Source: Magnetospirillum sp. (lineage in GTDB: Bacteria; Pseudomonadota; Alphaproteobacteria; CACIAM-22H2). From it: 64,000 bases of DNA. The notes below the pieces were generated by a model. It was not told the DNA's origin, searched no databases, and saw only the letters and a program-made list of their open reading frames with translations. The translations under genes and the position numbers were made by a program. The stretch spans positions 620,001 through 684,000 of the forward strand of contig JAPZUA010000002.1 of assembly GCA_027532905.1 (NCBI GenBank), read 5' to 3'. Below are positions 8,054-37,086 of this stretch, one piece after another. Positions within the stretch are counted from its first letter, which is position 1; each line of letters opens with the position of its first letter.

Positions 8054-8074
8054 GGTTTCCTCCGTTGGTTTTTC

Positions 8075-16095: not shown

Positions 16096-17820
16096 TTAGC
16101 CTGCGAACGGGGATTCCGCCAAACCGCGGAAGCCGGATTTGAGGGCGAACACGCTGCCCGAGAGCGGTGCTTCGGCGAGCTGCTGGGCCGACAGACGAAT
16201 GCGCGCACTTGTGATGTAGAGCGTGGAAAGGTCCGGCCCGCCGAACGCGCAGCTCGTCGGGCGCGGGACGGGCAGGTTGATCACCCGGTCGACTTTGCCG
16301 TCGGGGTCGTAGCGCGTGACGCACCAGCCGTCCCAATGCGCCGACCACACGAAGCCTTCTGCATCGACAGCAAGCCCGTCGGGCGTGCCCACGCCGTCGG
16401 GCAATTGCACGAATACGCGCCGATTGGCGATCGCGCCGGTTTCGATGTCGTAATCGTAGGCGTAGATGCGCTTGGGGCCTGAGTCCGTGAAATAGAAGGT
16501 ACGGTCGTCGGCACTCCAACCGAGTCCGTTCGACACGTGGAAGCCGCTGTCCATTTTTGTGCAGCGCCCGTCCGGGTCGAGGCGATAGAGCGCACCGTGG
16601 CCCGGCGTGGTGTCGATCGCGAGCGTGCCGGCCCACAGGCGGCCGCGCCGATCGCATTTGCCGTCGTTGAAACGGTTGCCCGGGCGGTCGGCCTCGGGGG
16701 CGGCGATGGTGGAGATGCCGCCGCCGTCGAGATCGATGGTCTTGAAGCCGCTCTGCATGGCCGCGACAAAACCGCCGCGGCGGCGCGGCACGATGGCGCT
16801 GATGAGTTCCGGCATCGGGTGCGAGATGAAGGCCCCGCTTTCGGGATCGGCGACGATCGCGGCCGGGGCGAGGATATCGACCATGAGCAGGCGATTGGCC
16901 TCGGGAAGCCACACCGGCCCCTCGCCAAGGAACGCTGTGGTCGGCACGGCAGAGACTAGATCGTCGCGATCCGACCCAAGCGGGCGCGGGCTTATTTGGA
17001 TCGACATTGCGACTTGTCCTGCATTGCCGGAAATACGTCGGGCGGCTTCCATCACGTCGCGCCCAAGTGCGTGCAGCTTGTCGACGGGCAGCCGGTAGGA
17101 GGGGCCGACGATCGCGATGGCGCCGATCGAGCGTGCGCGCGGATCGAGGATCGGGGCGCCGACCGAGTTGATGCCCAGATGCTGCTCTTCGAGCGATACG
17201 GCATAGCCGCGCGCTTTGGTGAGATCGAGTTCGCGGTCGAGCGGATCGCGCTCGGCGATGGTGTTGGGCGTGAAGCGTCGCAGACCCAAGGCATTCAACA
17301 GCCGGTCGCGCGTGAGCGGATCAAGATGGGCGAGGATCGCCTTGCCCGCACCGCTCGCATGGCACGCCGTGCGCGAACCGACACCGTTGCCCAAGCGCAC
17401 CGCCTGGGCCGCTTCGCGCTGGTCGATATAGAGGATGCTGTCGCCGTCGAGGATGCCGAGGCGGATCGTCTCGCCCGTCAAATCGCGCAGCCGCTCGAGT
17501 TCGGGCTCTGCGGCACTGCGCAGATCGAACTGGTCCCACACGCGATGGGCCATCTCGAACAGGCGGAAGCCGAGGCTGTAGGTCTGGTCGCGCTCGTCGA
17601 TGCGCAGCAGGCCGGCTTCGACGAGGGTTGCGAGCATGCGGTGGGCAGTGGCGCGGGTGAGGCCAGCTTTGTCGGCAATTTCGCTGAAGCGTAGGCGGCT
17701 CGGGTTTTCGGCAACGATATCGAGCAGCGACAGACCGCGCCGCAAGGCTTGGGCGCCGGGGATTTCGCGCCCCTGGTCGTTCGGCACTTCGCTGTCGGCA
17801 ACAACCGCCAGTTTTTTCAC
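16096..17820 (-). CDS. IclR transcriptional regulator fused to SMP-30/gluconolactonase domain
   Basis: 574-residue protein in one uninterrupted frame. Residues about 20-80 are an IclR winged helix-turn-helix and about 95-265 its effector-binding domain. From about 272 to the end it is a six-bladed SMP-30/gluconolactonase/LRE domain. The lactonase metal ligands match: E300 (GEGPVW), N385 (RFNDGK), N431 (SNGLGW) and D481 (PDGLAVD). Met272 lies exactly at the junction, preceded by an AGGA ribosome-site-like word about 10 bases upstream, so a free lactonase may also be made. The start is GTG with AGGGGG upstream. It is first in the sugar-acid operon and probably controls it. Fused as one chain it would couple sensing to lactone hydrolysis. 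Confidence 0.88.
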
Positions 17821-18921: not shown

Positions 18922-18965
18922 TCATTTGATATTGCATGTGCGCACCTGGACTGGAGCAAGACACG

Positions 18966-21011
18966 ATGTTTCGAATTGGCGTTGACGTTGGCGGGACCTT
19001 TACGGACTTCACGATTCTGGACGAGCGAAACGACGCCATTCGCTTTTTCAAAGTGCCCTCGACGCCCAAGGATCCTTCGCAGGCGATCGAAGACGGGCTG
19101 CGGCAGATCATCGCGACGTTTTCGATCGATCCGGCCGCGATCGGCTATTTGGGGCACGGCACGACGGTCGCTACGAACATCGTGATCGAGCGGCGCGGCG
19201 CGCGCACGGGCCTTTTGACCACGCACGGCTTTCGCGACGTGCTCGAGCTCGGCCGCCAGGCGCGGCCGTCGATCTACGATTATCGCATACAGAAGCCGCC
19301 GGTCCTCGTGCCGCGCGAACGGCGCGTGGAAGTGACCGAGCGCGTTGGCCCCGACGGCACGGTGCTCACACCGCTCGACGAAAAGTCGCTGACCGAGTCC
19401 GTCGAAGCGTTGCGCGCGGCCAAGGTCGAGAGTGTCGCGATCTGCTTTTTGCACAGCTATCGGCGCGCCGACCACGAGCAGGCTGCCAAGCGCGCGGTCG
19501 AGAAGCTGATGCCGGAGGCTTATGTCAGCGTCTCGAGCGAGATTCTGCCGGAGTTCCGCGAGTTCGAGCGCGTTTCGACGACGGTCGTAAACGCGTTTGT
19601 GGGCCCACGTATGGGCAATTATCTCGAACGCTTCCAAGCGCGCGTGCGCAGCGTGGGCATCGACGTGCAGCCTTATACGATCCATTCGAACGGCGGCCTC
19701 ATGTCGATCGAAACCGTGCGCGCCTGCCCGGTGCGCTCGTGCGTTTCGGGGCCTGCGGCGGGTGTGGTAGGGGCCGCCGAAATCGGCCGTGTTTCTGGCT
19801 TCCCCGATCTGATTACGTTCGACGTCGGTGGTACGTCGACCGACGTGTCGCTGATCCGCGATTCCAATCCGAGCTACACGGCCAATCGGCTCGTCGCGGG
19901 CTATCCCGTGAAAACGCCGATGATCGACATCCATGTGATCGGGGCGGGCGGCGGTTCGATCGCGCGCATCGACGATGCGGGTGCGATGAAAGTGGGGCCT
20001 GAATCCGCCGGTGCCGATCCGGGGCCGGTCGCCTATGGGCGCGGCGGGACGGCGCCGACGATTACGGACGCCAATCTGTGCTTGGGCCGTCTTGACGCAA
20101 CGAGCTTGCTCGGCGGACGCATGACGATCAATCTCGACGCCGCCAAGCGCGCGATCCACGACACGATCGCCAAGCCGCTTGGTCTGTCGATCGAAGCTGC
20201 GGCCCATGGCATCGTGCAGATCGCCAACGCCAATATGAGCCGTGCCATCCGCTCTGTCTCGATCGAGAAGGGCTACGATCTGTCGGAGTTTGCTTTATGC
20301 GCGTTCGGCGGGGCCGGGCCTCTGCATGCGGCCGAAGTGGCGGTCGAATGCGGCATTCCGCGCGCCCTCATTCCGCGCGAGCCGGGCACGCTGTGCGCGC
20401 GCGGCATGCTGCTGACCGATCTGTCGTCTGACTATGTGCGCAGCCATTTCTGCGACGCGAGCCCCGAAAACTGGCGCGCGGTGCTGGCCCTTTTCGACGC
20501 GATGATCGCGGAAGGCAATGCGTGGCTTGCACGCGAGGCCATCGCTGAGCCGCGGCGGCGCTTCAAACGCGTGCTCGACGCGCGCTATCGCGGCCAGAAT
20601 TTCGAAGTGAAAGTCGGCTGCGACGGCTTGGGCGCCCACGCGCTCCACACGCTTGTCGAACGGTTCCACGCAGCACATCTGCTTGCCTACGGCTATTCGA
20701 TCCCAGGTCGCGAAATCGAGTTCGTGTCGGCTCGCATCCAGGCGATCGGCGAAGTGCCCAAAGCGCCGCAGGCCAAGGTTGCGGGCGGCACCACGCTTGC
20801 CGCCGCCACGATCGGGGCCCGAAAGGTCTATATCGATGCGCGCCACGGCTGGCAGGAAGCGCCGGTCTACAGCCGCGAGAAGCTGCCGATCGGCATGGAC
20901 ATCATGGGGCCTGCGATCGTGAACGAGATGAGTGCGACTACGCTCATCCTGTCCGGCCAGACCGCGCGCGTCGATCTTTGGGGAAACATCGTTCTGCAGG
21001 TTGCACCATGA
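18966..21011 (+). CDS. hyuA: Hydantoinase/oxoprolinase subunit A (HyuA family)
   Basis: 681-residue ATP-binding subunit of the N-methylhydantoinase / 5-oxoprolinase family. The N-terminal phosphate-binding IGVDVGGTFTDF is at 4-15, and the ASKHA-type GGTSTDVSLI and FGGAGPLHAAEVA segments follow. Family enzymes use ATP to open lactam or imide rings, or carboxylate ketones as in acetone carboxylase relatives. The ATG at 18966 follows a GGAG. It is coupled to HyuB by an ATGA overlap and heads a long co-directional cluster with a peptide-type importer. The actual substrate is unknown. Confidence 0.88.
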   Translation: MFRIGVDVGGTFTDFTILDERNDAIRFFKVPSTPKDPSQAIEDGLRQIIATFSIDPAAIGYLGHGTTVATNIVIERRGARTGLLTTHGFRDVLELGRQARPSIYDYRIQKPPVLVPRERRVEVTERVGPDGTVLTPLDEKSLTESVEALRAAKVESVAICFLHSYRRADHEQAAKRAVEKLMPEAYVSVSSEILPEFREFERVSTTVVNAFVGPRMGNYLERFQARVRSVGIDVQPYTIHSNGGLMSIETVRACPVRSCVSGPAAGVVGAAEIGRVSGFPDLITFDVGGTSTDVSLIRDSNPSYTANRLVAGYPVKTPMIDIHVIGAGGGSIARIDDAGAMKVGPESAGADPGPVAYGRGGTAPTITDANLCLGRLDATSLLGGRMTINLDAAKRAIHDTIAKPLGLSIEAAAHGIVQIANANMSRAIRSVSIEKGYDLSEFALCAFGGAGPLHAAEVAVECGIPRALIPREPGTLCARGMLLTDLSSDYVRSHFCDASPENWRAVLALFDAMIAEGNAWLAREAIAEPRRRFKRVLDARYRGQNFEVKVGCDGLGAHALHTLVERFHAAHLLAYGYSIPGREIEFVSARIQAIGEVPKAPQAKVAGGTTLAAATIGARKVYIDARHGWQEAPVYSREKLPIGMDIMGPAIVNEMSATTLILSGQTARVDLWGNIVLQVAP

Positions 21012-22720
21012 CCAAGCGCATCGCCGACCCGATCCAGATGGAAGTGTTTTCCAATCGCGTGCTCGCGATCGCCGAAGACATGGGCTCGATCCTGATCCGC
21101 TCGTCCTTCTCGACGAACATCAAAGAGCGGCGCGACTGCTCGACTGCGATCATCGACGCCAACGGGCGCTTGATCGCCCAGGCCGAGCACATTCCGATCC
21201 ATCTCGGCGCCATGATGGGCGCCGTCGAGACGATCCTCAAACGCTACAAGCTTGAAGATCTCGCGCCCGGCGACGCGTTCATCTGTAACGATCCGTATCT
21301 GGCGGGCGGCAGCCATTTGCCCGATATTTCGATCATCACGCCCGTCCATATCGGCGGGCGCGTGCGCTTTTTCGCGGGCAACATCGCGCACCATGCCGAT
21401 GTCGGCGGCCGCAATCCGGGTTCGACTTCGGGCACGTCGCGCACGATTTTCGAGGAGGGCATTCGGCTGCCGGTCATCCGCATTGCGCGCGGCGGCACCA
21501 TCGACGAAGACCTCATCGAACTCATCGCCTCCAACACGCGCGACCCCGAAGAACGTCGCCTCGATTTGCGAACGCAGATCGGCACGAACGTGCGCGCAGG
21601 CGCCATGCTGTTGCAGCTGTGCGACCGCATGGGCTGGGACGCGGTCGCCCAAGCCATTGAAGACGTGCTGCTCTACACGAGCCAGCGCCTTAAAAACCGC
21701 ATCGCGGCCTTGCCCGACGGCGACTATCGCTTCGAGCGCGCGATGGACGACGACGGTTTCCCGGGGCCGCAAGTGCCGATCGTGTGCACGGCGCGCATTC
21801 GCGGCGAAACGCTGACCTTCGATTTTGCGGGCTCGGGACCGGAGGCGCGCGGGGCCATCAATCTGCCGGACAGTGCCTTGAAGGCATCGGTCTACTACTG
21901 CGTCAAAGCCGTGCTCGATCCCGGCCTCATGCCCAATCAAGGGGCGATCGATCCGATCCGCATCGAGGCGCCCGCAGGCAGCATCGTCAATCCGCGCCCG
22001 CCTGCGGCCGTGGCGGCGCGCGCCGTCACGTCGAACCGCCTGTGCGGGGCCGTTTTCGGCGCCTTGTTCCAAGCCTTGCCGATCGAGCGCGCTATGGCGT
22101 CGAGCAACGATTCGACGTCCGCCTCTTCGGTCTCAGGTTGGCATCCGCGGCGTAAAACGACCTACGTCTATCCCGAGAGCATGGGCGGGGGCATTGGCGC
22201 CTTCCAGGACCGCGACGGAATGGACGCTGTGCATGTGCACACGGTCAACTCGACCAATCTGCCGGTCGAAGCGCTCGAACTCGAATACCCGCTGCTGCTC
22301 GACGAATACTGTTTCGTGCCGGATTCCGGCGGGGCGGGGCGGCATCGGGGCGGGCTCGGCATGGCGCGACAGATCCGCATCCTCAACGACGGCTCGACGC
22401 TGTCGGTGCGCTCGGACGCGCATATCGTTTCGGCACCCGGCATGTTCGGCGGCCTGCCCTCGAGTGTCACGCGCATCGTGCGAAATCCGGGCACGGATCG
22501 CGAAGAAGTGCTGCATTCGAAGGCATCCGGCCTTTCGGTCGGGGCAGGGGAAACCGTGCGCGTCGAAACGCTCGGCGGCGGCGGGTTCGGCCCGCCGTCC
22601 GAACGGCCACTCGATCTGCTTGCGGCCGATCTGCGTCAGCAGAAAGTGTCGCTTGCAGCCGCCAACCGCGACTACGGTCCTGCGATGGTTGCAGCAGCGC
22701 TGGCTTTGCCCACGCCTTAG
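21008..22720 (+). CDS. hyuB: Hydantoinase/oxoprolinase subunit B (HyuB family)
   Basis: 570-residue partner of HyuA. The family landmarks are present: DMGSILIRSSFSTNIKERRD near the start, FICNDPYLAGGSHLPD (about 92-107), HHADVGGRNPGS (about 131-142) and the late SGGAGRHRGGLG. The ATG overlaps the HyuA stop as ATGA. Together A and B should form a cytoplasmic heteromeric ATP-dependent amidohydrolase or carboxylase-like enzyme. A second, diverged HyuA/HyuB pair is encoded at 35-38.8 kb on the other strand. Confidence 0.88.
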   Translation: MTKRIADPIQMEVFSNRVLAIAEDMGSILIRSSFSTNIKERRDCSTAIIDANGRLIAQAEHIPIHLGAMMGAVETILKRYKLEDLAPGDAFICNDPYLAGGSHLPDISIITPVHIGGRVRFFAGNIAHHADVGGRNPGSTSGTSRTIFEEGIRLPVIRIARGGTIDEDLIELIASNTRDPEERRLDLRTQIGTNVRAGAMLLQLCDRMGWDAVAQAIEDVLLYTSQRLKNRIAALPDGDYRFERAMDDDGFPGPQVPIVCTARIRGETLTFDFAGSGPEARGAINLPDSALKASVYYCVKAVLDPGLMPNQGAIDPIRIEAPAGSIVNPRPPAAVAARAVTSNRLCGAVFGALFQALPIERAMASSNDSTSASSVSGWHPRRKTTYVYPESMGGGIGAFQDRDGMDAVHVHTVNSTNLPVEALELEYPLLLDEYCFVPDSGGAGRHRGGLGMARQIRILNDGSTLSVRSDAHIVSAPGMFGGLPSSVTRIVRNPGTDREEVLHSKASGLSVGAGETVRVETLGGGGFGPPSERPLDLLAADLRQQKVSLAAANRDYGPAMVAAALALPTP

Positions 22721-22920: not shown

Positions 22921-24537
22921 ATGACCTTTCGGTATATCGCAGCGAAGCTTCAGGCGCTTGCCTTCGCTTCGTTGTTTGCAGCTTCGGCAGCATTTGCGCA
23001 AACGCCGGTCTCCGGCGGCAACCTCACCATCGCATTTCCGGCGAACCAGGAACCGGCCTCGTTGGACGGGCATATCGATCCGTTCCAGTCGACATGGCTG
23101 TTCAACTCCTTCATCGCCGATCCGCTCGTGATCCTCGACGCCGACGCGGTCTACAAGCCCGCCTTGGCGCTGTCGTGGGAGCTTTCGCCCGACAGCAAGA
23201 TCTGGACGTTCAAGCTGCGGCCGGGCGTGCGCTTCCAGGACGGTACGCCGTTCAACGCCGCCGCCGTCAAGTTCAACGTCGAACGCATCGTCGATCCGCG
23301 CACGGCCTCCAAGCAACTCGCCAGCGAAATCGGCCCCGTCAAATCGGTCGAAGTCGTCGACGATATGACCGTGCGCTTCGTCTATGACCAAGCGTGGGTG
23401 ACGCTGCTCGACGGTCTGCGCCGCACGCCGATCTGGTCGCCGACGGCAGCCCAGCGCTTCAGCCTCGCCGACTTCCAGCGCAACCTCGTTGGCACGGGTC
23501 CGTTCTCCTTGGCGGAATGGATCACCAACGACCGCATGGTGTTCCGCCGTTGGGCTGATTACGGCGGCTGGAACAGCGCTTCGGCCCAGCAGGGCCCGGC
23601 CTATCTCGATAGCGTCACGATCCGCTTCATCGGCGAAAACGCCGTGCTGAACGAAGCCGTGCGCGCCGGCACCACGCTCGTCGGCTTCACGCTGACGCCC
23701 GACGCGCGCGACATCTACAAGGACAAGCCGAACTTCGTGTTCCTGTCGCGCGGACAGTCGGGCACCGGGCTGCATCAGGTTATGAATATCCGCAATCCGC
23801 CACTCAGCGACATTCGCGTTCGCCAAGCGCTGCTGTTTGCGCGCGATTCCGCTGCCCTTAACCGACTGCTCTACGACGGCACTTACATCCCGTCGGACGG
23901 GCCGCTCGACAACGTGCATCCTTGCTTCTGGCCGGGCGCTTCGGCCATGTACCAGCCCAATCTCGATCGCGCGCGCCAGCTTCTCGACGAGGCCGGTTGG
24001 CGTACGGTGCCGGGCCAGCCGATCCGCCAGGCGCGTGGCGTTCCCGGCGTTGCCGACGGCACGCCGCTGCGCGTGCGCTGGAGCACGATCCATCACCGCG
24101 AAATCGGCGAGGCGATGCAGCAGCAGCTGCGTCGCGTCGGCGTGGATCTTGCGGTCGAATTGCTGCCGGGCCCGATCCAGCTCGACCGCGTCAATCGCCG
24201 CGACTTCGATCTGATGTTCCTGCGCCAGCGCTCGCCCGATCCGGTCATTCTCGACCAGGTGTGGAACTCGCGCTGGGACCAGCCGGGCGGCTGGGCGTGG
24301 ACCGGCTACAAGGGCGAAGAACTCGACCGCACGGTCGCTCAGCTTCGCGTGGTCTCCGACCAGGGCGCACGATGCGAAGCGGCGCGCAACGCCCAGAAGA
24401 TCATCATGGACAATGCGCTGGTCTTCCCGACGCTAAGCCAGCCCGTGTTCATCGCCATGTCGCCGCGCGTGCAAAATTTCCGCATGGGCTCGGAGGGCAA
24501 CTGGTTCTTCCTGCATTCGACCTGGATCCAGAGATAG
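22921..24537 (+). CDS. ABC transporter substrate-binding protein, family 5 (peptide/opine type)
   Basis: 538-residue periplasmic binding protein of the DppA/OppA family. The signal peptide ends near SAAFA-Q (about residue 26). The mature part shows the family's LALSWELSPDSKIWTFKLR and VRFQDGTPF segments and the GTGPFSLAEW turn. An AGGAGG ribosome site precedes the ATG. It is followed by a strong hairpin and then two permeases; the matching ATPases are at 30072-32095, after four enzyme genes. The ligand may be a modified amino acid, small peptide or glycoconjugate rather than a true peptide. Confidence 0.88.
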   Translation: MTFRYIAAKLQALAFASLFAASAAFAQTPVSGGNLTIAFPANQEPASLDGHIDPFQSTWLFNSFIADPLVILDADAVYKPALALSWELSPDSKIWTFKLRPGVRFQDGTPFNAAAVKFNVERIVDPRTASKQLASEIGPVKSVEVVDDMTVRFVYDQAWVTLLDGLRRTPIWSPTAAQRFSLADFQRNLVGTGPFSLAEWITNDRMVFRRWADYGGWNSASAQQGPAYLDSVTIRFIGENAVLNEAVRAGTTLVGFTLTPDARDIYKDKPNFVFLSRGQSGTGLHQVMNIRNPPLSDIRVRQALLFARDSAALNRLLYDGTYIPSDGPLDNVHPCFWPGASAMYQPNLDRARQLLDEAGWRTVPGQPIRQARGVPGVADGTPLRVRWSTIHHREIGEAMQQQLRRVGVDLAVELLPGPIQLDRVNRRDFDLMFLRQRSPDPVILDQVWNSRWDQPGGWAWTGYKGEELDRTVAQLRVVSDQGARCEAARNAQKIIMDNALVFPTLSQPVFIAMSPRVQNFRMGSEGNWFFLHSTWIQR

Positions 24538-24609: not shown

Positions 24610-25551
24610 ATGAGCCGCTATATCGTCAGTCGGCTGCTGCAGCTCGTGCCCGTGCTGTTTCTGATTTCGTTGATCGTCTTCCTGGTGATGCACACCTTGC
24701 CGGGCGATCCAGCGGAGCTGATGCTGCAGGGTGCGGAGGGCGGTGCCGTGACGCCGGAACGCCTCGCGGAGCTGCGCACCGAAATGGGGCTCGACGATCC
24801 GCTTGTTGTTCAGTACATGCGCTTTGTGGCCGGCGCTTTGATCGGCGACCTCGGCGAGTCAATCCGCTTCCGCACGCCGGTCAGCGCGCTGATCGCCGAA
24901 CGCTTCTACTACACGATGGAACTCGCGGTCGCCGGCCTTGTCTGCGCGCTCGCGATCGGCGTGCCACTCGGAATGATTGCGGCCGTGCGCGTAAACGGCA
25001 TCTTCGACACGATCGCAATGGGCATCGCCTATGTCGGCGCTTCGGTGCCGATCTACTGGCTGGGGCTCGTACTCATTCTCGTGTTCGCGTTCAATCTCGG
25101 CTGGTTTCCAGCGGCAGGTGCGCAAGACTGGAACTCGCTGGTGCTGCCGGCCTTCACGCTCGGCTTTGCGTCGGCGGGTCTCATCTCGCGCCTCGTGCGC
25201 TCGAGCATGATCGAGGTGCTGCAGGAAGACTATATCCGCACCGGCCGCGCCAAGGGCCTCTCGGAACCGATCGTGCTGTGGCGCCACGGCCTCAAAAACG
25301 CGCTCATCCCGGTCGTTACGATGGTCGGGCTGCAGTTCGGCGGGCTACTCGCCGGTGCTGTCGTGACCGAGACGGTGTTCAGCCGTCCCGGCATCGGGCG
25401 CCTCATCGTCAGCGGCATCCTGTCGAAGGATTATCCGCTGGTGGAGGGCTGTGCTTTGTTCCTGGCGGTCGTCTATCTGTTGGTCAATCTGTTCGTCGAC
25501 ATTCTCTATGCGTGGCTCGATCCGCGTATTCGCTACGGGCGGGCCGCATGA
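24610..25551 (+). CDS. Peptide-type ABC transporter permease, DppB family
   Basis: 313-residue inner-membrane permease with an N-terminal MSRYIVSRLLQLVPVLFLISLIVF helix-type opening, a periplasmic loop with LPGDPAEL, and the coupling loop YIRTGRAKGLSEPIVLWRHGLKNALIPVV, which marks the DppB family. The ATG lies 27 bases after the hairpin at 24546-24582. It pairs with the DppC-type permease that overlaps its stop. Confidence 0.9.
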   Translation: MSRYIVSRLLQLVPVLFLISLIVFLVMHTLPGDPAELMLQGAEGGAVTPERLAELRTEMGLDDPLVVQYMRFVAGALIGDLGESIRFRTPVSALIAERFYYTMELAVAGLVCALAIGVPLGMIAAVRVNGIFDTIAMGIAYVGASVPIYWLGLVLILVFAFNLGWFPAAGAQDWNSLVLPAFTLGFASAGLISRLVRSSMIEVLQEDYIRTGRAKGLSEPIVLWRHGLKNALIPVVTMVGLQFGGLLAGAVVTETVFSRPGIGRLIVSGILSKDYPLVEGCALFLAVVYLLVNLFVDILYAWLDPRIRYGRAA

Positions 25552-26441
25552 GCAACAGTGCCGCAACAGCCGCCGAAGCCGAAGACGCGGCCCGCCTGCG
25601 CGCCGGGCGCAAGCGGGCCTGGCAGCGCTTCATGCGCAATCGTGGCGCCGTAGGCGGGGCGCTCGTGCTGATTGCCTGGAGCATTGTGGCCTTGCTCGGC
25701 GTGCATATCGTGGCGCACGATCCGACTGAAATGCTGGGTCTGCCGCGCCAGCCGCCCTCGGCCGAATTCTGGTTTGGCACCGATCTTCTGGGGCGCGACA
25801 TTTTCAGCCGCGTGCTGGTGGGCTCGCAAGTGTCGCTGCAGTTGGGACTGATCAGCGTCGGCCTCGGTGCAATCCCCGGCGTGGCGTTGGGGCTCGTGGC
25901 CGGTTATTTCGGCGGCTGGACCGATACGCTCGTGTCGCGCCTCACCGATGCGATGCTGGCGTTTCCGTCGATCCTGCTTGCCCTTGTGATTATCGCCGCA
26001 CTTGGCCCCAGCCTCAAAAACGTGATGATCGCCGTTGGGATCGGCACGGTGCCGCTTTATGCGCGCCTCGTGCGCGGCAGCGTGCTGTCGGTCAAGACGC
26101 TCCCCTATGTCGAGGCGGCGCGCGTCGTCGGCAATCCCACGTACCGCATCCTGCTGCGCTACGTGCTCGTCAATTGCTACGCGCCGATCGTGGTGCTGTC
26201 CACGTTGCAGGTCGGCAACGCCATCTTGATCGGTTCGGGCCTATCGTTCCTGGGCTTGGGCGCGCAGCCGCCGACGCCCGAATGGGGCCTCATGTCGGCC
26301 GAAGGGCGCGACGTGCTGCGGCGCGCCTGGTGGATCTCGACCTTTCCTGGCCTTGCGATCCTGACCGTCGTCGTCGCCTGCAATCTGGTCGGCGACGGTC
26401 TGCGCGCGGCTCTCGACCCGAGGATGCGCGTCGATGGCTGA
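25548..26441 (+). CDS. Peptide-type ABC transporter permease, DppC family
   Basis: 297-residue DppC-type permease. A charged cytoplasmic tail precedes the first helix, FGTDLLGRDIFSRVLVGSQVSL is the family signature, and the coupling loop is around YVEAARVVGNPTYRILLRYVL. The ATG overlaps the DppB stop as ATGA. The downstream enzyme gene begins 8 bases before this gene's stop, so the transporter and the metabolic genes form one transcription unit. Confidence 0.9.
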   Translation: MSNSAATAAEAEDAARLRAGRKRAWQRFMRNRGAVGGALVLIAWSIVALLGVHIVAHDPTEMLGLPRQPPSAEFWFGTDLLGRDIFSRVLVGSQVSLQLGLISVGLGAIPGVALGLVAGYFGGWTDTLVSRLTDAMLAFPSILLALVIIAALGPSLKNVMIAVGIGTVPLYARLVRGSVLSVKTLPYVEAARVVGNPTYRILLRYVLVNCYAPIVVLSTLQVGNAILIGSGLSFLGLGAQPPTPEWGLMSAEGRDVLRRAWWISTFPGLAILTVVVACNLVGDGLRAALDPRMRVDG

Positions 26442-27855
26442 ACCGCTCGTCGGCATCCAGATAAGCCCGATCAGCTTCGTCGACGAGGGTGTGGAAGGGT
26501 GCCTCGACACGCTGCAGAGTCGTGCCCGCGTCAACGCACTGATGATCGGTACGGTGTCGTGGCTCGGCCTCAAGGTCGGGCGGCGGATCAGCGCCGAGCT
26601 TGATGGCTGGCCCGACCACGGCGTGCCGGCACCTTACACGATGCGCGGTGGTTCCTACATTCGCGTGCGTCCCGAATTCTATTGCCGTACCGCAATCGGC
26701 GATTTTCGCGCGCACGATCCCGAGTTCGGCGACCGCGACGTGCTCGATATGGTGATACCGGAAGCGCGCAAGCGCGGCATGAAAGTGATCCCCGAGTTCA
26801 TGGAGCCGCTGTTCAAATATGCCGGCCACGGCTCGGCGGCGAGCGTCGAGATCCCCGGCATGGCGCAATGCATGGAGATCGACGTGCTGGGCCGCATCGG
26901 CGGCGAGCCGTGCACGTCGAACCCCGACTATCGCGCCTGGTGGCACGGCATCGTGGAAGAGCACTGCCGCAGCTACGACATCGACGGCATCATGTGGTGC
27001 AACGAGCGCAATTCGCCGCTCGACCGCATGATGCAGGGTCAGGCACCTGGCTGCTTCTGCCCGCATTGCCGCAGCGAAGCAGGTGCACGCGGCATCGACG
27101 TCGAGCGCGTGCGGCTCGCGTTCCGCGAGGTCTGGCGCTTCTTCCAGGAGGCGCGCGCGGGAGCATCGTTCGTAGACGGCAGCTTCGTCGAGTTTCTGCG
27201 CGTGTTGCTGCGCAATCCCGAAGTGCTGCTGTGGGAGCGCTTCTGGCTCGAACGCTCGAAGGATCTCGACCGCGAGCTCTACGGCATCGTCAAATGGTGC
27301 AATCCGAAGCTTTCCTTCGGCCTCAATGTCTGGAACCGGAACCATTTCAATCCGATCCGCAAAGCCCAATGGGCGTGGGCGGAGCAGACGGACTATGCTG
27401 ATTGGGTGAAGCCCATCGTCTATCAGCATCAGGCCGGCGAAGTGTTCGCCAAGGAAATGGGTTTCTTCGCGTCGTCGCTGTTGCGCGACTTCGAAGCCGA
27501 CGAGTTCGTGCCCGCGATGTACAAGCTCTTGGGCTTGCGCGAGGCGCCGTGGAAAGAGATCGTCGCGGCCGGCATGGATCCCGACACCTACGTGTTCGGC
27601 CAATGCGAAGATGCGGTGCGCGGCTGTGCCGGCAAGGCCAAGGTCTATATGGGGATCGGTGTGGATGCGCCGCGCACGCTGGCGCATCAGGCCGTATGCA
27701 CGCCCGACATCGTTTATCGCAGCGTGCACGCGACGTTCCGCGCAGGCGGCGAGGGGATCGTCTATTCGCCCAATTACGCGGGCATGAATCTTTCCAATCT
27801 CGACGGCGGTGCGCGCGCCCTCGACGAGCTTGGATTCGGCGGAGGGACGGCATGA
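26434..27855 (+). CDS. Putative TIM-barrel glycoside-hydrolase-like protein (unknown substrate)
   Basis: 473 residues, no signal peptide, so cytoplasmic. I do not recognise a named enzyme. The strand motif YDIDGIMWCNERN (about 181-193) followed by a Cys cluster C207-x-C209-x-x-C212 resembles the hypothetical glycosyl hydrolase (GHL6-like) group, in which acids on barrel strands are followed by a CxCxxC element. Other possible catalytic acids are E121 and E124 (PEFMEP). It overlaps the DppC gene by 8 bases and the aminotransferase by 4. It may process the imported compound, perhaps a glycosylated or sugar-like amide. Confidence 0.6.
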   Translation: MAEPLVGIQISPISFVDEGVEGCLDTLQSRARVNALMIGTVSWLGLKVGRRISAELDGWPDHGVPAPYTMRGGSYIRVRPEFYCRTAIGDFRAHDPEFGDRDVLDMVIPEARKRGMKVIPEFMEPLFKYAGHGSAASVEIPGMAQCMEIDVLGRIGGEPCTSNPDYRAWWHGIVEEHCRSYDIDGIMWCNERNSPLDRMMQGQAPGCFCPHCRSEAGARGIDVERVRLAFREVWRFFQEARAGASFVDGSFVEFLRVLLRNPEVLLWERFWLERSKDLDRELYGIVKWCNPKLSFGLNVWNRNHFNPIRKAQWAWAEQTDYADWVKPIVYQHQAGEVFAKEMGFFASSLLRDFEADEFVPAMYKLLGLREAPWKEIVAAGMDPDTYVFGQCEDAVRGCAGKAKVYMGIGVDAPRTLAHQAVCTPDIVYRSVHATFRAGGEGIVYSPNYAGMNLSNLDGGARALDELGFGGGTA

Positions 27856-29027
27856 CGCGGTTGCTGGCATCGCTTTCGGGGCGCATGCATGAAGAAGACG
27901 TTTCGGTGCGCACGCGGCTCCTCGAGATCGCCGCGAAACTGCCCGACGTGATCGCGCTCGGGCGCGGCGATCCGGACTTCCACACGCCCGCCCATATTGT
28001 CGAAGCCGCCAAGCGTGCGATCGACGCAAACGAGCACCATTACACGCACCCGACCGGCTTGCCGCAACTGCGCGAGGTTATCGGCGCGCATCTGAATGGC
28101 CAGTACGGTCTCGATTACGGCGTCGACGAGATCGTGGTGACCGCGGGCACGCAAGAGGCCGTCATGCTGTGCATGCTGGCCCTCGTCGATGCGGGCGACG
28201 AGGTGCTGATCCCGTCGCCGCGCTTCACGTCCTACGATTCGGCCGTCGAAATGTGCGGAGGTGTGGTGGTCGATATTCCGACCGAGCAGGCCAGCGACTA
28301 CGCGCTGCGCCCGGAAGAGATCGAGCGACGCATCACGCCGCGCACGAAGGCAATCATTCTGATCTCGCCGAACAATCCGACCGGTGCCGTAACGCCGCCC
28401 GAGAACGTGCGCGCGATCGCCGAAATCGCCGAGCGGCGCAACGTGGTCGTGATCGCCGACGAAATCTACGCGCGCATCATCTTCGCCGGCTCCACGCATC
28501 TGTCGATCGCGACACTGCCGGGCATGAAGGCGCGCACGATCACGCTTAATGGTTTTTCGAAGTCGCATGCGATGACGGGCTGGCGCGTGGGCTATCTCGC
28601 GGCCCCGCGCGAATTCGTGCGCCGAATCACCGAGGCGCGCCACACGCTGTCGATCAACGCGGCAACGCCCTCGCAATGGGCCGCCCTTGCGGCGTTGCAG
28701 GGCCCGCAAGAGCCTGTCGAGGCGATGGTGCGGGCCTATGGCGAGCGGCGCACGCAAACGATGGCGGCCCTCGATGCGCTCGGCTTCACCTACGGTCACC
28801 CGGGCGGGGCGTTCTACGTCTACACGAACGTGTCGCATACGGGCCTGAAAGCTGGCGCCTTCTGCGAGGCGTTGCTGCGCGAGGCGCGCGTTCTCGTATT
28901 CCCCGGCACTTTGTTCGGCGATCCGGGCGATAGCCATATTCGCATCAGCTTGCTGCAGCCGGCCCTCCGCATCGGCGAAGCGTTCGAGCGTATTGCCATG
29001 GCCAAGCAGCGTCTGTTCGCGTCGTGA
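27852..29027 (+). CDS. Class I/II PLP-dependent aminotransferase
   Basis: 391-residue fold-type I aminotransferase of the aspartate/aromatic group. The PLP lysine is K237 (GFSKSHAMTG), NNPTG is at 174-178, DEIY at 203-206 and the substrate-carboxylate arginine is near the C terminus (HIRIS). The ATG overlaps the upstream stop as ATGA. In this operon it probably removes or transfers the amino group of the imported or ring-opened compound. A catabolic role is more likely than biosynthesis because it lies inside a transporter operon. Confidence 0.88.
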   Translation: MTRLLASLSGRMHEEDVSVRTRLLEIAAKLPDVIALGRGDPDFHTPAHIVEAAKRAIDANEHHYTHPTGLPQLREVIGAHLNGQYGLDYGVDEIVVTAGTQEAVMLCMLALVDAGDEVLIPSPRFTSYDSAVEMCGGVVVDIPTEQASDYALRPEEIERRITPRTKAIILISPNNPTGAVTPPENVRAIAEIAERRNVVVIADEIYARIIFAGSTHLSIATLPGMKARTITLNGFSKSHAMTGWRVGYLAAPREFVRRITEARHTLSINAATPSQWAALAALQGPQEPVEAMVRAYGERRTQTMAALDALGFTYGHPGGAFYVYTNVSHTGLKAGAFCEALLREARVLVFPGTLFGDPGDSHIRISLLQPALRIGEAFERIAMAKQRLFAS

Positions 29028-29034
29028 GTGTGCG

Positions 29035-30071
29035 ATGAGCCTCGGCTTTCTTCTCGTCGGGCTCGGCAATCGCGGGGGCCAATGGGCTGCCATTCTCGCG
29101 CAGCACGCGGCCGCGCATCTCGTGGCGGCCGTCGATACGGATCCCGCACGCCGCGATGCGTTCGCAGCGCGCTTCCCGGGCGTGCCGACCTACGCGTCGT
29201 TGGCCGAAGGGCTTGCTCGGTCGAAGGCACAGGCGGTGCTGCTGGTCACGCCGCCCGTCGATCGTCTCGCCCAAGCCGAAGCAATTTTTGCGGCCGGTCT
29301 GCCGCTTCTGGCCGAGAAGCCGCTCGCTGACACGATGGAGGAAGCCGCCGCCATCGTACGGGCAGCCGAGCGGTCGGGCAGCACGCTCAGCGTCGGGCTC
29401 AATTTCCGCTATCTCGCGGTCACGCAAGCGATCCGCGATCTGGTGGCACGCGAAGCGTTCGGCAAGCCCGGGTTTGCGCAGTTCATCTACCAGCGCAATC
29501 GCGACGGCATGCGGCCGGGGCTCAACCGCTATCCGCTGACGATGCGCCATCCGATGATGCTCGAACAGTCGATCCACCATCTCGATCTGATCCGCTTTGC
29601 CTATGGGCGTGAGGTTGCGAGCATCCAATGCCGCACCTGGAACCCGGCCTGGAGCATGTATGCGCACGACGCCAATGTGAGCTGCCTGCTGACGCTCGAA
29701 GACGGCATGGCCGTCGACTATTTGGGGACATGGACCGGCGGCTGGGACGCGCTCAAATTTCAGTGGCGCACGGATTGCGCCAATGGAGTAATCGTCCAGC
29801 GCGAATTGTTTGACGATCTTGCGACCGCGCGCACGCGCGACGAAGCGCTTTCGCCGGTAGCACTTGCGCAATGTGTGCCGTTCGTGGACGACAGCAAGGC
29901 GTTGCTGGCCGCGTTCGCGGCAGCCGTCGCCGCCGGAACGCCGCCGCCCTGCGGCGGGCGCGATCATCTGCGCACGCTCGCCCTGTGCTGGGCCGGGCTT
30001 GAGTCGGCAGCGTCCGGTGCACGCGTCGTGCTTACGGAATTCTACGCGCGCCATCGCCTGGAGGACGCGCT

Positions 30072-30075
<4 letters not shown>
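29035..30075 (+). CDS. Gfo/Idh/MocA family oxidoreductase
   Basis: 346-residue NAD(P)-dependent dehydrogenase. The N-terminal Rossmann loop is VGLGNRGG (about 7-14) and the family's EKPLADTMEEA (about 98-108) is conserved. Family members oxidise sugars, inositols or modified amino sugars. The ATG at 29035 lies 7 bases after the aminotransferase stop. Together with the hydrolase-like protein and an aldo/keto reductase in the same operon it hints at a substrate with a polyol or sugar part. Confidence 0.87.
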
Positions 30076-31060
<985 letters not shown>

Positions 31061-31064
<4 letters not shown>

Positions 31065-32095
31065 AGCCGCTCGTTTCGGTCGAGAAGTTGCAGGTCCATT
31101 TCCCGGTCTATCGCGGGATCGTGTTCGAGCGTCAAGTCGGCACCGTCCAGGCTGTGGACGGCGTCGATCTGCAGATACGGCGCGGCGAGACGCTAGGCCT
31201 TGTCGGCGAATCCGGCTGCGGCAAATCGACGGTTGGGCGCGCCATTTTGCGGCTGCAGCAGCCCACCGGCGGGCGCATCCTGTTCGACGGCGCTGATCTT
31301 GCCACGCTTGAAGGCGAGGCAATGCGCACGTTCCGCCGTCGCGTGCAGCTGATCTTCCAGGATCCTTACGCGAGCCTCAATCCGCGCATGAGCGTGGGCG
31401 AGGTGCTGGCCGAACCGATTCTGCTCTATGGGTTGCGGCAGGGTGCGGCTGTGGGTGAGCGCGTGCGCGAATTGCTGTCGCTTGTCGGCTTGAGCCCCAG
31501 CCATGCCGGCCGCTATCCGCACGAATTCTCGGGCGGTCAGCGCCAGCGCATCGGCATCGCGCGCGCATTGGCGTGCGAACCCGATCTCATCGTGTGCGAC
31601 GAGCCGGTGTCGGCTCTCGACGTGTCGATCCAAGCGCAGATCGTCAATTTGCTGCAGGATCTGCAGGAGCGGCTGTCGCTCGCCTATCTGTTCATCGCGC
31701 ACAGCCTCAACGTGATCAAACACATCTCGAGCCGCGTCGCGGTGATGTATCTGGGGCAGGTGGTTGAGATCGGCGAGACGGCCGATGTCTACGGGGCCGC
31801 ACGCCATCCCTATACGCGCGCGCTGTTGTCGGCGGTCCCTGTTCCCGATCCTGAAATCGAGCGGCGGCGCACGCGCATCATCCTGCAGGGCGACGTGCCG
31901 AGCCCGATGGACCCGCCGCCCGGTTGCCGGTTTGCAAGCCGTTGCCCGATCGTCGAAGATCGCTGCCGTACGAGTGCACCTTCACTCGCACAGGCCGGGG
32001 CGAATACGAGCCTTGCTGCCTGCTGGCGCACGGCTGAGTCGCAGACCCTGATGCCCGATTTGTTTTCGCCCCAAACTGGAGAAACGATCCGATGA
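31061..32095 (+). CDS. Peptide-type ABC transporter ATP-binding protein, DppF family
   Basis: 344-residue ATPase with Walker [24 protein letters not shown], signature FSGGQRQR and Walker [13 protein letters not shown]. The C-terminal [12 protein letters not shown] element is typical of DppF. The ATG overlaps the DppD stop as ATGA and its own stop overlaps the aldo/keto reductase start in the same way. It completes the five-subunit importer. Confidence 0.9.
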
Positions 32096-33081
32096 AATTC
32101 AATCCTTTGGGCCGCTCGGGCCTGATCGTGAGCAAGGTGTGCCTCGGCGGCAATTCGTGGGGTGCCAAAGGCCGCCGTGCATGGGCCGGGTTCGACGCCG
32201 ACGACAGCGTGCCGTTTTTCCGCCGCGCCCTCGATCTCGGGATCAATTTCTTCGATACGGCCGACGCCTACAATATGGGCCTCTCGGAGACGATCATGGG
32301 CGAAACGCTTATGGGCTTCGTGCCGCGCGAGGAGATCGTGATCTCGACCAAGGTCGGGCTCAAGATGGGCGACAAGCCGAACCGCCACGGCCTCGGCCGC
32401 AAGCACATCCTCGCCTCGATCGACGCGCAGTTGAAGCGTCTCAAAACCGACTACGTGGACGTCTACCAGATACATCGTCTCGACGACATCACGCCGATCG
32501 AAGAATTCATGGAGACGCTCGACATTCTCGTGCGCTCGGGCCGCGTGCGCTATATCGGCGCTTCGACGATGCCGGCATTTCGGCTCGCACAGATGCTGGC
32601 GGTTGCCGACCGCTACGGCTATGCCCGGCCGATCGTGATGCAGAATCTCTACAATCTCATCCAGCGCGAGGAAGAGCGCGACATGAATGTGCTGTGCCTC
32701 GAAGCGGGGCTCGGGCTCATTCCCTATTCGCCGCTGGCGCGGGGATTCCTCGCCGCCAACCGGGTCAAAGGTGGGGGCGGGGAGACCGAGCGCGCCAAGA
32801 GCGACGCGGGTGCGAAACAGGAGCTCTATCGCGACTGCGATTGGGCGATCATTGATGCGCTCAAGAAAGTCGCGGCCGCGCGCGGCTGCAAGCCTGCCCA
32901 AGTCGCGTTGTTGTGGCTGTGGTCGAAACCGGTGATGGCCGCACCCATCATCGGGGCCACCAAACTCGAGCAGCTCGACGATGCGGCAGCGGCCAGCGAC
33001 ATGGTGCCGCTCAATGCTGCCGAAGTCGCCGCACTCGAAGCGCCTTATCAGTGGCGCCCGCATCCCGGCTGGGGGCTCTAG
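32092..33081 (+). CDS. Aldo/keto reductase
   Basis: 329-residue NADPH-dependent TIM-barrel reductase. The catalytic tetrad is complete: D55, Y60, K87 and H128 ([18 protein letters not shown]). It closes the plus-strand catabolic operon. Its stop overlaps the stop of the convergent flavoprotein gene by 3 bases (33079-33081 against 33078-33080), and no terminator hairpin separates them. A carbonyl made by the aminotransferase or the dehydrogenase is a plausible substrate. Confidence 0.88.
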
Positions 33082-34463: not shown

Positions 34464-35053
34464 GGCAACGATGCGAAGTCGGCGCAGCGCATCACGGGCG
34501 AGATGGCGCCCAACGACGCAACGGCCGTGGCGTGGACGCGGGCGTCGAAGGCGGCACAGCCGTCTTCGAGCAGCACGGTCTTGAAATCGCGCACATGCGC
34601 GTCGCGCAAAGTGCTCGCCACGCCGCCATTGGTCACGATGCCGCAGATTGCCAGCGTATCGATGCCGGCTTTGCGCAACACCCATTCAAGCCGCGTCATG
34701 TAGAATGCCGAATAGGCGACTTTCTCGACCGAGATGTCGGCTGGCTTCAGCGCGTCGACAAGGTCGTGCCCCCAACTGCCGGGCGCGAAGTCGCCCTTTG
34801 CCAGAAACGGCCGCAGCTTTTTAAGATGCGCCGAGATAAAGGGATCGCCGCCCTTGCCGGGGACCAGCGTAAAGTGCGTCGAGACGATCCAGCCGCCTTG
34901 CTGGCGCACGCGCGCGGCGACTGCCGCGACGCGCGCAGGTACAGCCGCGATCTCCGCACTCGTCTGCCCCGCACGCCCGTAGGCGCCTTTGGTATCGAGA
35001 AAATCGTTCTGCAGATCGCAGATAAGGAGGGCCGTCGTCGAAAGATCGCTCAT
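34460..35053 (-). CDS. Isochorismatase-fold hydrolase lacking the catalytic cysteine
   Basis: 197-residue protein of the isochorismatase/cysteine hydrolase superfamily. The catalytic Asp13 (CDLQNDF) and Lys111 (VEKVAYSAF) are present. The nucleophile position of the GxxTxxCVxxT motif is glycine: GIVTNGGVAST, Gly144. Known members without this cysteine, such as the isochorismatase PhzD, act on vinyl ethers rather than amides. A deamidase role like that of maleamate amidase is therefore doubtful. It lies between HyuA and the flavoprotein with 4-base overlaps on both sides. Confidence 0.85.
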   Translation of the reverse strand: MSDLSTTALLICDLQNDFLDTKGAYGRAGQTSAEIAAVPARVAAVAARVRQQGGWIVSTHFTLVPGKGGDPFISAHLKKLRPFLAKGDFAPGSWGHDLVDALKPADISVEKVAYSAFYMTRLEWVLRKAGIDTLAICGIVTNGGVASTLRDAHVRDFKTVLLEDGCAAFDARVHATAVASLGAISPVMRCADFASLP

Positions 35054-37086
35054 CGCCGCCTCACGATCAGATTGCCGAAACGATCGACTGTCGCCGCCAG
35101 ATCGGGCTCGATCACGGTCGTTGCGTCCGGCTGTTCGAGAATGGCCGGACCTTCGATGCGCGCATCGACCGGCAGTGCGAGCCGGTCGTAGATCGCGGTT
35201 TCGGCCCATGCACCGTCGAACCAAACCGACCGCGTGCCTGTCTTGGCGGCGGCAACGCTGCCACCTTGCGGGGCGAGACGCGAAAGATCGATCTTCGGGC
35301 GCCTTCCCACGACCGCGACGCGCAACGTCAGCACGCGCATTTCGATGCCTTCGAGCAGTCGCCCGAAGGCGGCCTTGTAGGCTTTTTCGAAAGCCGCGCG
35401 AATGGCGGCCGCATCCGGCTTGGCATCGTCGAGCGGGACGGCCAGCGTGTGCGTTTGGCCGACATAGCTCATGTCGAGTTCCATTTCGCACGCGATCGCT
35501 TCAAGCTCGACGCCGGCGGCACGCACAAGGCGCTCGCCTTCTGTCGCGTAGTCGGCGATTGCTTTGCCGAGAGCTTGCGTATCGAGCGCGCCAAGCGGGC
35601 GGTTCACGGTGCGCACGAAATCGTGGCGCATGTCGGCAATTACGCAGCCCAAGGCCGACGTAACGCCGGGAAAGCGCGGCACGAGCGTGGCGCCAAGCCC
35701 TGTTTCTTTCATCAGCGCGCCGGCATGCAACGCACCCGCACCGCCGAACGGCATGAGCGCAAAACGCTGCGGATCGTGGCCGCGTTCGATCGATACAAGG
35801 CGCAAAGCACCCGCCATGCGGCTATTGGCCACGCGCGCGATCGCTTCTGCCGCCGCCAACGTCGCAAGCCCGAGTGGGACGGCAACATGCTGGTCGATGG
35901 CGCGTTTGGCGGCATCGATATCGAGGGAGGTGAGTTTGCCGCCGATGGGGCGTGCGGCATTGATGCGGCCCATCACGACATTGGCGTCGGTTACGGTCGG
36001 GCGCGTGGCACCCAGGCCGTAGGCGGCCGGGCCCGGATCGGAGCCCGCACTTTCGGGGCCGATCTGCAGCAGGCCACCGCGATCGACCCAGGCGATCGAT
36101 CCGCCGCCCGCACCGATCGTCGTGATCTCGATCATCGGCGTGCGTACGACCATGCCGAATTCGATCGTCGACTGTGCCGCAAGAGCCGCCTTGCCGTCGG
36201 CGATGAGGGCGACGTCGAAAGAGGTCCCGCCCATGTCGCCCGTCAGCACGTCGGCGAAGCCGGCACTCTTGGCGATGTGCGCAGCCGCAATCACGCCCGC
36301 AGCAGGCCCCGACAGAGCCGTGCGCACGGGCAGGCGTGCGGCCGTCTCGACCGACATGACGCCGCCGTTCGACTGCACGATCAGCAATTGGCCTTTTGCA
36401 CCGCCGTCGACAAGCCGCTTGTCGAGCCGCGACAGATAGGAAGCGACAACGGGCTGCAGATAGGCGTTCAGCGACGCCGTTGAGGCGCGTTCGAACTCGC
36501 GGATTTCGGGCAGGATTTCGTGCGACGCGGTCACGTACGGGTTCGGCCAAACTTTACGCAACGTCGCGAGGGCGGCGCGTTCGTTGGCGTCGTTGGCATA
36601 GGCGTTGATGAAAACGATCGCGACAGCCTCGGCACCGGCCGCGATCAGCTGGCGTGCCGCTGTCTCGACGGCGCCCAGATCTACCGCTTCGCGCACTGTG
36701 CCGTCAGCCAATGTGCGTTCGGGAACTTCAAGGCGCAGGTCGCGCGGGATGGCCGGCACGAACTCGCCCCACAGACCCCAGGTCTGGCGCCGGTCGCGGC
36801 GGCGCATTTCCAGCACATCGCGAAAGCCCCGCGTCATGATCACGCCGGTGCGCGCGCCTTTGCGCTCCAGCAACGCGTTGGTACCGACGGTCGTGCCGTG
36901 CACAACGGCGGCAATTCGCGCGAAATCCGCTTCGCCGGATTTAATGCCGGCGACGAAGCCGATCGACTGGTCGCCGCGCGTCGAGGGTACCTTGCGCGTT
37001 TGTGCCACGCCCGTGGCTTCGTCGAAGAAGAACAGATCGGTAAAGGTTCCGCCGACATCGACGCCGACGACAAGACTCGGTTTCAT
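35050..37086 (-). CDS. hyuA: Hydantoinase/oxoprolinase subunit A (HyuA family), second copy
   Basis: 678-residue HyuA-type subunit. The N-terminal VGVDVGGTFTDLFFF, the ASKHA segment GDMGGTSFDVALI and the FGGAGALHAGAL nucleotide contact are all present. It is only moderately similar to the copy at 18966-21011, so it is not a recent duplication. It overlaps HyuB upstream and the isochorismatase-fold gene downstream by 4 bases each. As in its relatives, ATP-driven opening of a cyclic amide or activation of a carbonyl is expected. Confidence 0.88.
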   Translation of the reverse strand: MKPSLVVGVDVGGTFTDLFFFDEATGVAQTRKVPSTRGDQSIGFVAGIKSGEADFARIAAVVHGTTVGTNALLERKGARTGVIMTRGFRDVLEMRRRDRRQTWGLWGEFVPAIPRDLRLEVPERTLADGTVREAVDLGAVETAARQLIAAGAEAVAIVFINAYANDANERAALATLRKVWPNPYVTASHEILPEIREFERASTASLNAYLQPVVASYLSRLDKRLVDGGAKGQLLIVQSNGGVMSVETAARLPVRTALSGPAAGVIAAAHIAKSAGFADVLTGDMGGTSFDVALIADGKAALAAQSTIEFGMVVRTPMIEITTIGAGGGSIAWVDRGGLLQIGPESAGSDPGPAAYGLGATRPTVTDANVVMGRINAARPIGGKLTSLDIDAAKRAIDQHVAVPLGLATLAAAEAIARVANSRMAGALRLVSIERGHDPQRFALMPFGGAGALHAGALMKETGLGATLVPRFPGVTSALGCVIADMRHDFVRTVNRPLGALDTQALGKAIADYATEGERLVRAAGVELEAIACEMELDMSYVGQTHTLAVPLDDAKPDAAAIRAAFEKAYKAAFGRLLEGIEMRVLTLRVAVVGRRPKIDLSRLAPQGGSVAAAKTGTRSVWFDGAWAETAIYDRLALPVDARIEGPAILEQPDATTVIEPDLAATVDRFGNLIVRRR

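Follow-up and report, generated by a model that had tools for sequence, protein, structure and literature searches.

What reaction does the protein encoded between importer and aminotransferase genes in a 64,000-nucleotide stretch of Magnetospirillum sp. DNA (contig JAPZUA010000002.1, positions 620,001 to 684,000; this whole stretch is called the window) carry out? A preliminary description, made from the sequence alone, had seen in this protein, here named P0001, an unassigned hydrolase-like TIM barrel with a CxCxxC cluster, likely to perform the first step on an imported compound. On balance, we favour a glycoside-hydrolase-like enzyme with a TIM barrel, located in the cytoplasm and belonging to a family not yet characterised. 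It would cleave one specific glycosidic bond in an amino-acid- or peptide-like compound that the cell takes up. The reading frame (Table 1) encodes 473 residues, with the DIDGIMWCNE motif and the cysteines C207, C209 and C212 where they had been described.

Candidate relatives were collected by exact peptide patterns from 84,980 species genomes, so that the 101 encoded relatives found are a lower bound; 80 loci were kept. The 35 relatives aligned with P0001 in a first alignment (A1, 36 rows) are 61-79% identical to it, and a near relative, L002, is 98% identical. Between P0001 and relative L004, codons differ 83, 54 and 211 times at positions 1, 2 and 3 (468 codons); the corresponding figures for L002 are 9, 3 and 108. 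Given the many relatives and differences lying mainly in third codon positions, the gene is genuine and not a chance reading frame, and the bias fits coding on the + strand; the list of open reading frames also holds one of 579 residues on the opposite strand that overlaps it (26290-28029). A second alignment, of 79 rows, combines the window protein with 78 of the 80 fetched loci, leaving out L059, which is truncated at a contig end, and L069, whose frame is interrupted. In 120 of its columns, no more than one of the 79 rows departs from the common residue, and by record title these rows come from nine phyla; a constraint of this kind would be expected for one narrow activity. The interruption in L069, a relative from a Gemmatimonadetes bin, lies near the start of the frame (7995-8075) and may be an assembly error. 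No signal peptide was seen by eye at the N-terminus of P0001, which would keep the protein in the cytoplasm, as previously proposed.

AlphaFold2, run on the 36-row alignment, gave a confident beta/alpha barrel with its strands in order (pLDDT 87.4, pTM 0.89). The best match among solved structures, sought by Foldseek and VIA-align (families unlisted by VIA-align may also match), was Cwp19 (Z 25.3, 314 residues, 3.5 A), tied with PgaB (Z 25.1). An alpha-L-fucosidase (Z 24.2), enzymes of the glycoside hydrolase (GH) 42 type (20-22.5) and GH164 (about 22) came next; some of the GH family numbers are those we take the matched PDB entries to carry. The top matches are thus glycosidase-type barrels, and the earlier assignment to a glycosidase-like TIM barrel stands. 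The PgaB C-terminal domain, the alpha-L-fucosidase 6tvk and the GH164 beta-mannosidase are likewise TIM-barrel carbohydrate-active domains (Z about 22-25), with an identity to P0001 of 9-14%. In the model, pLDDT falls below 50 at residues 44-67 (except two) and 128-132, and several residues there are invariant (among them K47, R50, D61, H62 and H132). It is possible that these stretches form a mobile loop closing over the substrate.

Sequence comparison led to no known family. Profile searches in Pfam, NCBIfam and PHROGs gave no firm placement: no NCBIfam family came close to its cut-off, and PHROGs left P0001 unmatched, in keeping with the previous view that the protein belongs to no characterised family. 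Closest was GHL10 (PF02638), at 20.2 bits for a curated cut-off of 27.9, a sub-threshold similarity over residues 99-186; it matched 35 of the 36 A1 members at E<=1 (best E 4.5e-05), and a profile comparison with one GHL10 protein gave a probability of 82% over residues 100-196. GHL10, the family of Cwp19, hence combines the closest structural match with sub-threshold sequence similarity. GHL6 (PF14871, cut-off 35 bits), the family against which a profile search had been proposed earlier, finds no support as the home family: P0001 had no match to it at E<=1, nine of the 36 members did, with a best E of 0.00097, and three of four distant homologues scored 13.6-17.5 bits. A GHL6-bearing alpha-L-fucosidase, Mfuc3, has been assayed (PMC4723247). 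GH42 (PF02449) matched neither P0001 nor any A1 member at E<=1. Two sequence searches found no PDB sequence at E<=0.001, the best value being 0.012 in the search without the distant homologues; with a profile including these four, the first PDB match was Cwp19 (E 0.0033). By such scores, the P0001 family is outside, but adjacent to, the GHL10, GHL6 and GH42 families. The statement that it resembles only hypothetical glycosyl hydrolase groups was therefore right for the sequence (GHL10, below cut-off) and wrong for the fold, which clearly matches characterised glycosidases. No paper on the family or on its gene cluster was found by title among those listed, in a literature covered mostly without subscription journals.

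Related TIM-barrel glycosidases carry their acid/base where strand beta4 ends, as with Glu161 (next to Asn160) of a GH42 enzyme; strand beta6 ends with a Tyr and beta7 with a second acid, which in Cwp19 is replaced by Gly (PMC5765458). Equivalent places were sought in P0001 by strand order and position, not by coordinates. Structure prediction, proposed earlier as a route to the conserved acids, puts the invariant E191 at the end of beta4 and the invariant D411 at the end of beta7. With N190-E191, Y330 on beta6 and D411, the layout looks like that of clan GH-A, and from their positions E191, Y330 and D411 may be catalytic. Compared with clan GH-A, the barrel and the beta4 Glu are present, and beta7, judged by strand position, carries an Asp. 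The Asn-Glu pair of GH42 is found by position in all 79 rows, whereas the GH42 nucleophile, a Glu at the end of beta7, is replaced by D411 in all 79 (strand position only). GH42 enzymes such as the Thermus A4 enzyme (1kwg) and Gal42 of Bacillus sp. BY02 thus share with P0001 the TIM barrel, the beta4 Asn-Glu, the beta6 Tyr and a beta7 acid. They differ from it by an identity of at most 16% in the structure alignment, by the beta7 Glu, and by chains of about 640-700 residues in the solved GH42-type structures. The pattern of GHL10, an Asp at the end of beta4 and a Gly at beta7, was not found, again by strand position only (N190-E191 and D411, with G409), and Cwp19 itself has Asp196 and Gly328 at these places (PMC5765458). 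K326, which precedes Y330 by four residues, is kept in all 83 rows when the four distant homologues are added to the 79, and Y330 in three of the four. A Schiff-base aldolase acting through K326 was considered and dropped: as Y330 matches the Tyr of GH42 and Cwp19, K326 probably lies deep in the barrel, and it is best seen as an oddity.

On a Parabacteroides plasmid, two of the distant homologues stand in tandem beside TonB-receptor and SusD-type genes (L085:14848-17881), with two BglX genes (presumably GH3), a family 43 glycosylhydrolase and a glycerate kinase nearby. On a Granulicella plasmid, a single homologue with an N-terminal twin-arginine motif, RRRFLK (by eye), adjoins an Xaa-Pro aminopeptidase-like gene and lies near 4-hydroxyproline-epimerase-like, DapA-like and GH127-annotated genes, these neighbours each scoring below the NCBIfam cut-off (epimerase, 404 versus 442 bits). 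To judge by gene content, both are carbohydrate or glycoprotein loci.

The CxCxxC cluster of the preliminary description is present, and has a fourth member, C160, that had been missed; nor is it universal. Of the 79 rows, 45 have all four cysteines and 34 have none of them, and no row has some but not all. A tree from which these columns were left out needs two or more changes of state, gain and loss not being told apart. Since the four distant homologues carry the site (Cys at 160, 207 and 209 in 4/4, Cys or His at 212), this suggests that it is old and was subsequently lost. In the tandem Parabacteroides homologues, from a polysaccharide-type locus, the fourth position is His (CCCH). A similar arrangement has been described in GH42: according to PMC8573354, some GH42 enzymes bind Zn via Cys113 (the first ligand is printed both as Cys11 and as Cys113), Cys153, Cys155 and Cys158 around the acid/base Glu148, and the cluster is not conserved across GH42. 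As a pattern, the C...CxCxxC of Gal42 and some other GH42 members, surrounding the beta4 acid/base and confined to some members, recurs in the P0001 family, and a weak GH42 profile alignment places C160 opposite a GH42 Cys; CxCxxC starts 16 residues past the acid/base in P0001, versus 5 in Gal42. No paper came up when the residues that bind zinc in the Thermus GH42 enzyme were searched for by number. C207, C209 and C212 are most likely three quarters of a putative structural metal (Zn) site, dispensable because the four residues are absent as a unit from 34 rows, and probably structural because it copies the Zn site of some GH42 enzymes. It is extremely improbable that the cluster is a catalytic metal or redox centre, as the emphasis first laid on it implied. 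It does occur in P0001 and 44 other rows, and the Gal42 authors, who saw Zn raise both activity and thermostability, claim for the motif a role in catalysis as well as stability; yet 34 of 79 orthologues do entirely without it, whereas E191, Y330 and D411 are kept in all, and earlier work on another GH42 enzyme, as cited there, puts Zn outside the catalytic cycle, where it steadied a domain (PMC8573354).

Conserved neighbours were counted by tblastn (E<=1e-20), which was preferred because antisense frames hide several true genes among families of open reading frames (family 14, for instance, is the antisense of the aminotransferase). Of the 80 loci, 48 have flanks of 6 kb or more on each side; in these, an amidohydrolase was found 45 times, the window's aminotransferase family 42 times and DppD 36 times, followed by DppC (30), DppB (29), Gfo/Idh/MocA (24), M32 carboxypeptidase (24), a hydantoinase/allantoinase-like enzyme (23), Ldh_2 (21), DUF4438 (19), an M24 enzyme (19) and the window's DppA (15); PuuE-like and DoeB-like proteins also occur. 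At 45% identity or more over half the query, the first three were retained in 60, 54 and 42 of the 80 loci. Linkage to importer and aminotransferase is thus conserved, and in the window the P0001 gene overlaps its neighbours on both sides. The amidohydrolase resembles amide-cutting enzymes: Xaa-Pro dipeptidase (207 bits, cut-off 500), arginine carboxypeptidase and ochratoxinase. It had escaped the preliminary description, since the window's genome has just one relative of it, 37% identical and located elsewhere. Among 81 carrier genomes, 19 were chosen by hand, mostly where no amidohydrolase had been seen beside the gene; 15 of them encode it at E<=1e-50 (each best match <=1e-70), with identities of at least 58% in 11 and 42-51% in the rest. 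By these counts the amidohydrolase is a strong yet not obligate partner.

Together, these elements could form the following route. The linked Dpp-type importer would take up an amino-acid- or peptide-like compound, and P0001 would hydrolyse one glycosidic bond (C-O or C-N), removing a sugar-like part, with E191 as acid/base, D411 as nucleophile or base and the cysteines holding a structural Zn near the acid/base. The amidohydrolase would open an amide (a step for which the window's genome has no close copy), the aminotransferase would deaminate the released amino acid, and Gfo/Idh/MocA, aldo/keto reductase or epimerase-type enzymes would process the sugar-like part. P0001 may act first, as the preliminary description had it, but the amidohydrolase, with its 45 of 48 loci, could equally do so.

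Several observations weigh against a glycosidase. A shared fold alone shows no function, P0001 stays below the cut-off of every Pfam and NCBIfam family, and an hhalign profile comparison with four GH42 proteins was weak (probability 13.7). The beta7 residue is Asp and not the Glu of clan GH-A. Among the distant homologues, E191 is kept in three of four (the L083 column is Q as aligned, with a Glu close by), while position 409, a G in the 79 rows, is D in all four and position 411 reads E, N, N and D, so that the beta7 chemistry may differ. Amide- or amino-acid-type enzymes make up most of the conserved neighbours, no sugar kinase was seen among the neighbour families scanned, and in large families, Dpp and Gfo among them, the E<=1e-20 threshold lets in paralogues as well. 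At E<=1e-50, the window's genome (G000) and three others of the 19 carriers lack the amidohydrolase, and at E<=1e-60 so do all 289 genomes of the class (at most six candidates scored per genome), the close carriers G000 and G128 included. Because these two lack it as well, the class sample shows the rarity of the partner rather than co-occurrence.

It could be, although we think it rather unlikely, that a glycosidase scaffold here no longer cuts glycosides and instead breaks some other bond (cyclic amide, imine or C-N) in a nitrogen-rich compound, by hydrolysis or elimination. The company of amidohydrolase, hydantoinase/allantoinase-like, M24, M32, PuuE-like, DoeB-like and aminotransferase genes would suit such a reaction, as would the beta7 Asp in place of Glu and the invariant K326 on beta6. 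However, N190-E191, Y330 and a beta7 acid are retained as in glycosidases, the named structural matches are all glycosidases or carbohydrate-active domains, and distant homologues have genes with beta-glucosidase, GH43 and GH127 annotations next to them. An action on amino-sugar chains or muropeptides, that is, in cell-wall recycling, is suggested by Cwp19 and PgaB being the two best structural matches and by the M32 and M24 peptidases and oligopeptide-type importer near by. We consider it very unlikely: the catalytic beta7 position, an acid in the P0001 family, is a Gly in Cwp19 and GHL10 (PMC5765458), no muropeptide-recycling enzyme was recognised among the neighbour families scanned, and a patchy distribution (3 of 23 genomes of the order) is unlike that of a housekeeping step. 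A glycosidase acting on an imported amino-acid- or peptide-like compound thus remains the explanation that we favour.

In the window, the P0001 gene has importer and aminotransferase genes as its neighbours, as first reported: it follows a DppC-type permease gene and precedes a class I/II aminotransferase gene, in a run of coupled genes (Table 1). The window aminotransferase is nearest to aspartate/aromatic aminotransferases; its score against GntC is 335.8 bits (cut-off 415), and it reaches none of the cut-offs shown. The operon has a HyuA/HyuB-type pair on either side, the first nearest to caprolactamase subunits (below cut-off). Hydantoinase A/B was considered as a part of the pathway and set aside, as the window HyuA and HyuB match only 4 and 6 of the 80 loci at E<=1e-20; they were treated as passengers. 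At 16096-17820 (-), a 574-residue frame joins an IclR-type regulator (helix-turn-helix and effector domain) to an SMP-30/gluconolactonase domain, and is either a regulator-enzyme fusion or the result of a lost stop. In many other loci (L058:2357-3304, other Rhodobacteraceae and Gemmatimonadota), two DUF4438 genes, Ldh_2, M24 and a divergent M32 carboxypeptidase precede the cluster. DUF4438 was matched in 24 of the 80 loci; its nearest solved protein is the uncharacterised TM1086, and its name was absent from the literature searched.

Table 1. Features of the window and of P0001 (window coordinates)
Feature	Position	Strand	Remark
TIM-barrel glycoside-hydrolase-like protein P0001, 473 residues	26434..27855	+	ATG start, no internal stop
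Conserved low-confidence stretch, residues 44-67 of P0001	26563-26634		alignment and AlphaFold2
C160, fourth Cys of putative Zn site	26911..26913	+	all-or-none with C207/C209/C212 in 79 rows
N190-E191, end of strand beta4, proposed general acid/base	27001..27006	+	invariant 79/79; strand E185-190; GH42 'NE' position
C207-x-C209-xx-C212	27052..27069	+	all-or-none; at least 2 changes on the tree
K326 ... Y330, on or just after beta6	27409..27423	+	both 79/79; Y330 at the place of the GH42 beta6 Tyr
D411, end of strand beta7, proposed nucleophile or base	27664..27666	+	79/79; strand E403-411
Two HyuA/HyuB-type pairs flanking the operon	18936-22720, 35050-38774	+, -	second grouped with first by similarity
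DppA-type solute-binding protein (SBP_bac_5)	22921..24537	+	
DppB-type permease	24610..25551	+	named by its sequence and position; 39/80 loci have homologues (E<=1e-20)
DppC-type permease	25548..26441	+	overlaps P0001 gene start by 8 bases; start placed by hand
Pyridoxal-phosphate aminotransferase class I/II	27852..29027	+	4-base ATGA overlap with P0001 gene
Gfo/Idh/MocA oxidoreductase	29035..30075	+	
DppD-type ATPase	30072..31064	+	
DppF-type ATPase	31061..32095	+	by eye from the list of open reading frames; start placed by hand
Aldo/keto reductase, last of coupled run	32092..33081	+	

The family is patchily distributed: 2 of 11 genomes of the genus, 3 of 23 of the order and 2 of 398 of the phylum (at most four candidates scored per genome) carry it, and the 4 of 289 class genomes with a match at E<=0.001 are the window's own, the near relative, a 31% homologue and a 70-residue match. 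On a quick tree without bootstrap, in which the L083 branch is very long, the labels of the nine phyla spanned need 15 changes versus at least 8; bins and mislabelled metagenome-assembled genomes add noise to these labels, and changes above the minimum are no proof of transfer. From this pattern, horizontal transfer appears likely.

A bolder idea, improbable as it stands, is that P0001 is the key deglycosylating enzyme of an undescribed catabolic pathway, shared horizontally among these phyla, that breaks down an imino-acid or peptide compound in glycosylated form, such as a proline or hydroxyproline unit carrying a sugar. That example comes from the single Granulicella locus, with its 4-hydroxyproline-epimerase-like, GH127-annotated and Xaa-Pro aminopeptidase-like genes, and from the pairing of close relatives with an amidohydrolase of the Xaa-Pro-dipeptidase type and often with M24 prolidase-like enzymes. 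Mycosporine-like amino acids were also considered as substrate, and dropped, as the 10 papers listed of 104 were reviews or dealt with ultraviolet biology, and none by title with a degradation cluster. Were the deglycosylating pathway real, P0001 would be the founder of a new GH family in which the beta7 acid is shifted. The all-or-none set of four cysteines offers a clean natural experiment on a structural metal site in a TIM-barrel enzyme. Recurrence of the strictly conserved P0001 with the same amidohydrolase, aminotransferase and importer in distant phyla points to a widespread nutrient of the environment that has so far escaped recognition. Knowledge of the substrate would give a name to one pathway shared by Gemmatimonadota, Trueperaceae, Chloroflexota, Rhodobacteraceae and others, and would probably add a glycoside hydrolase family.

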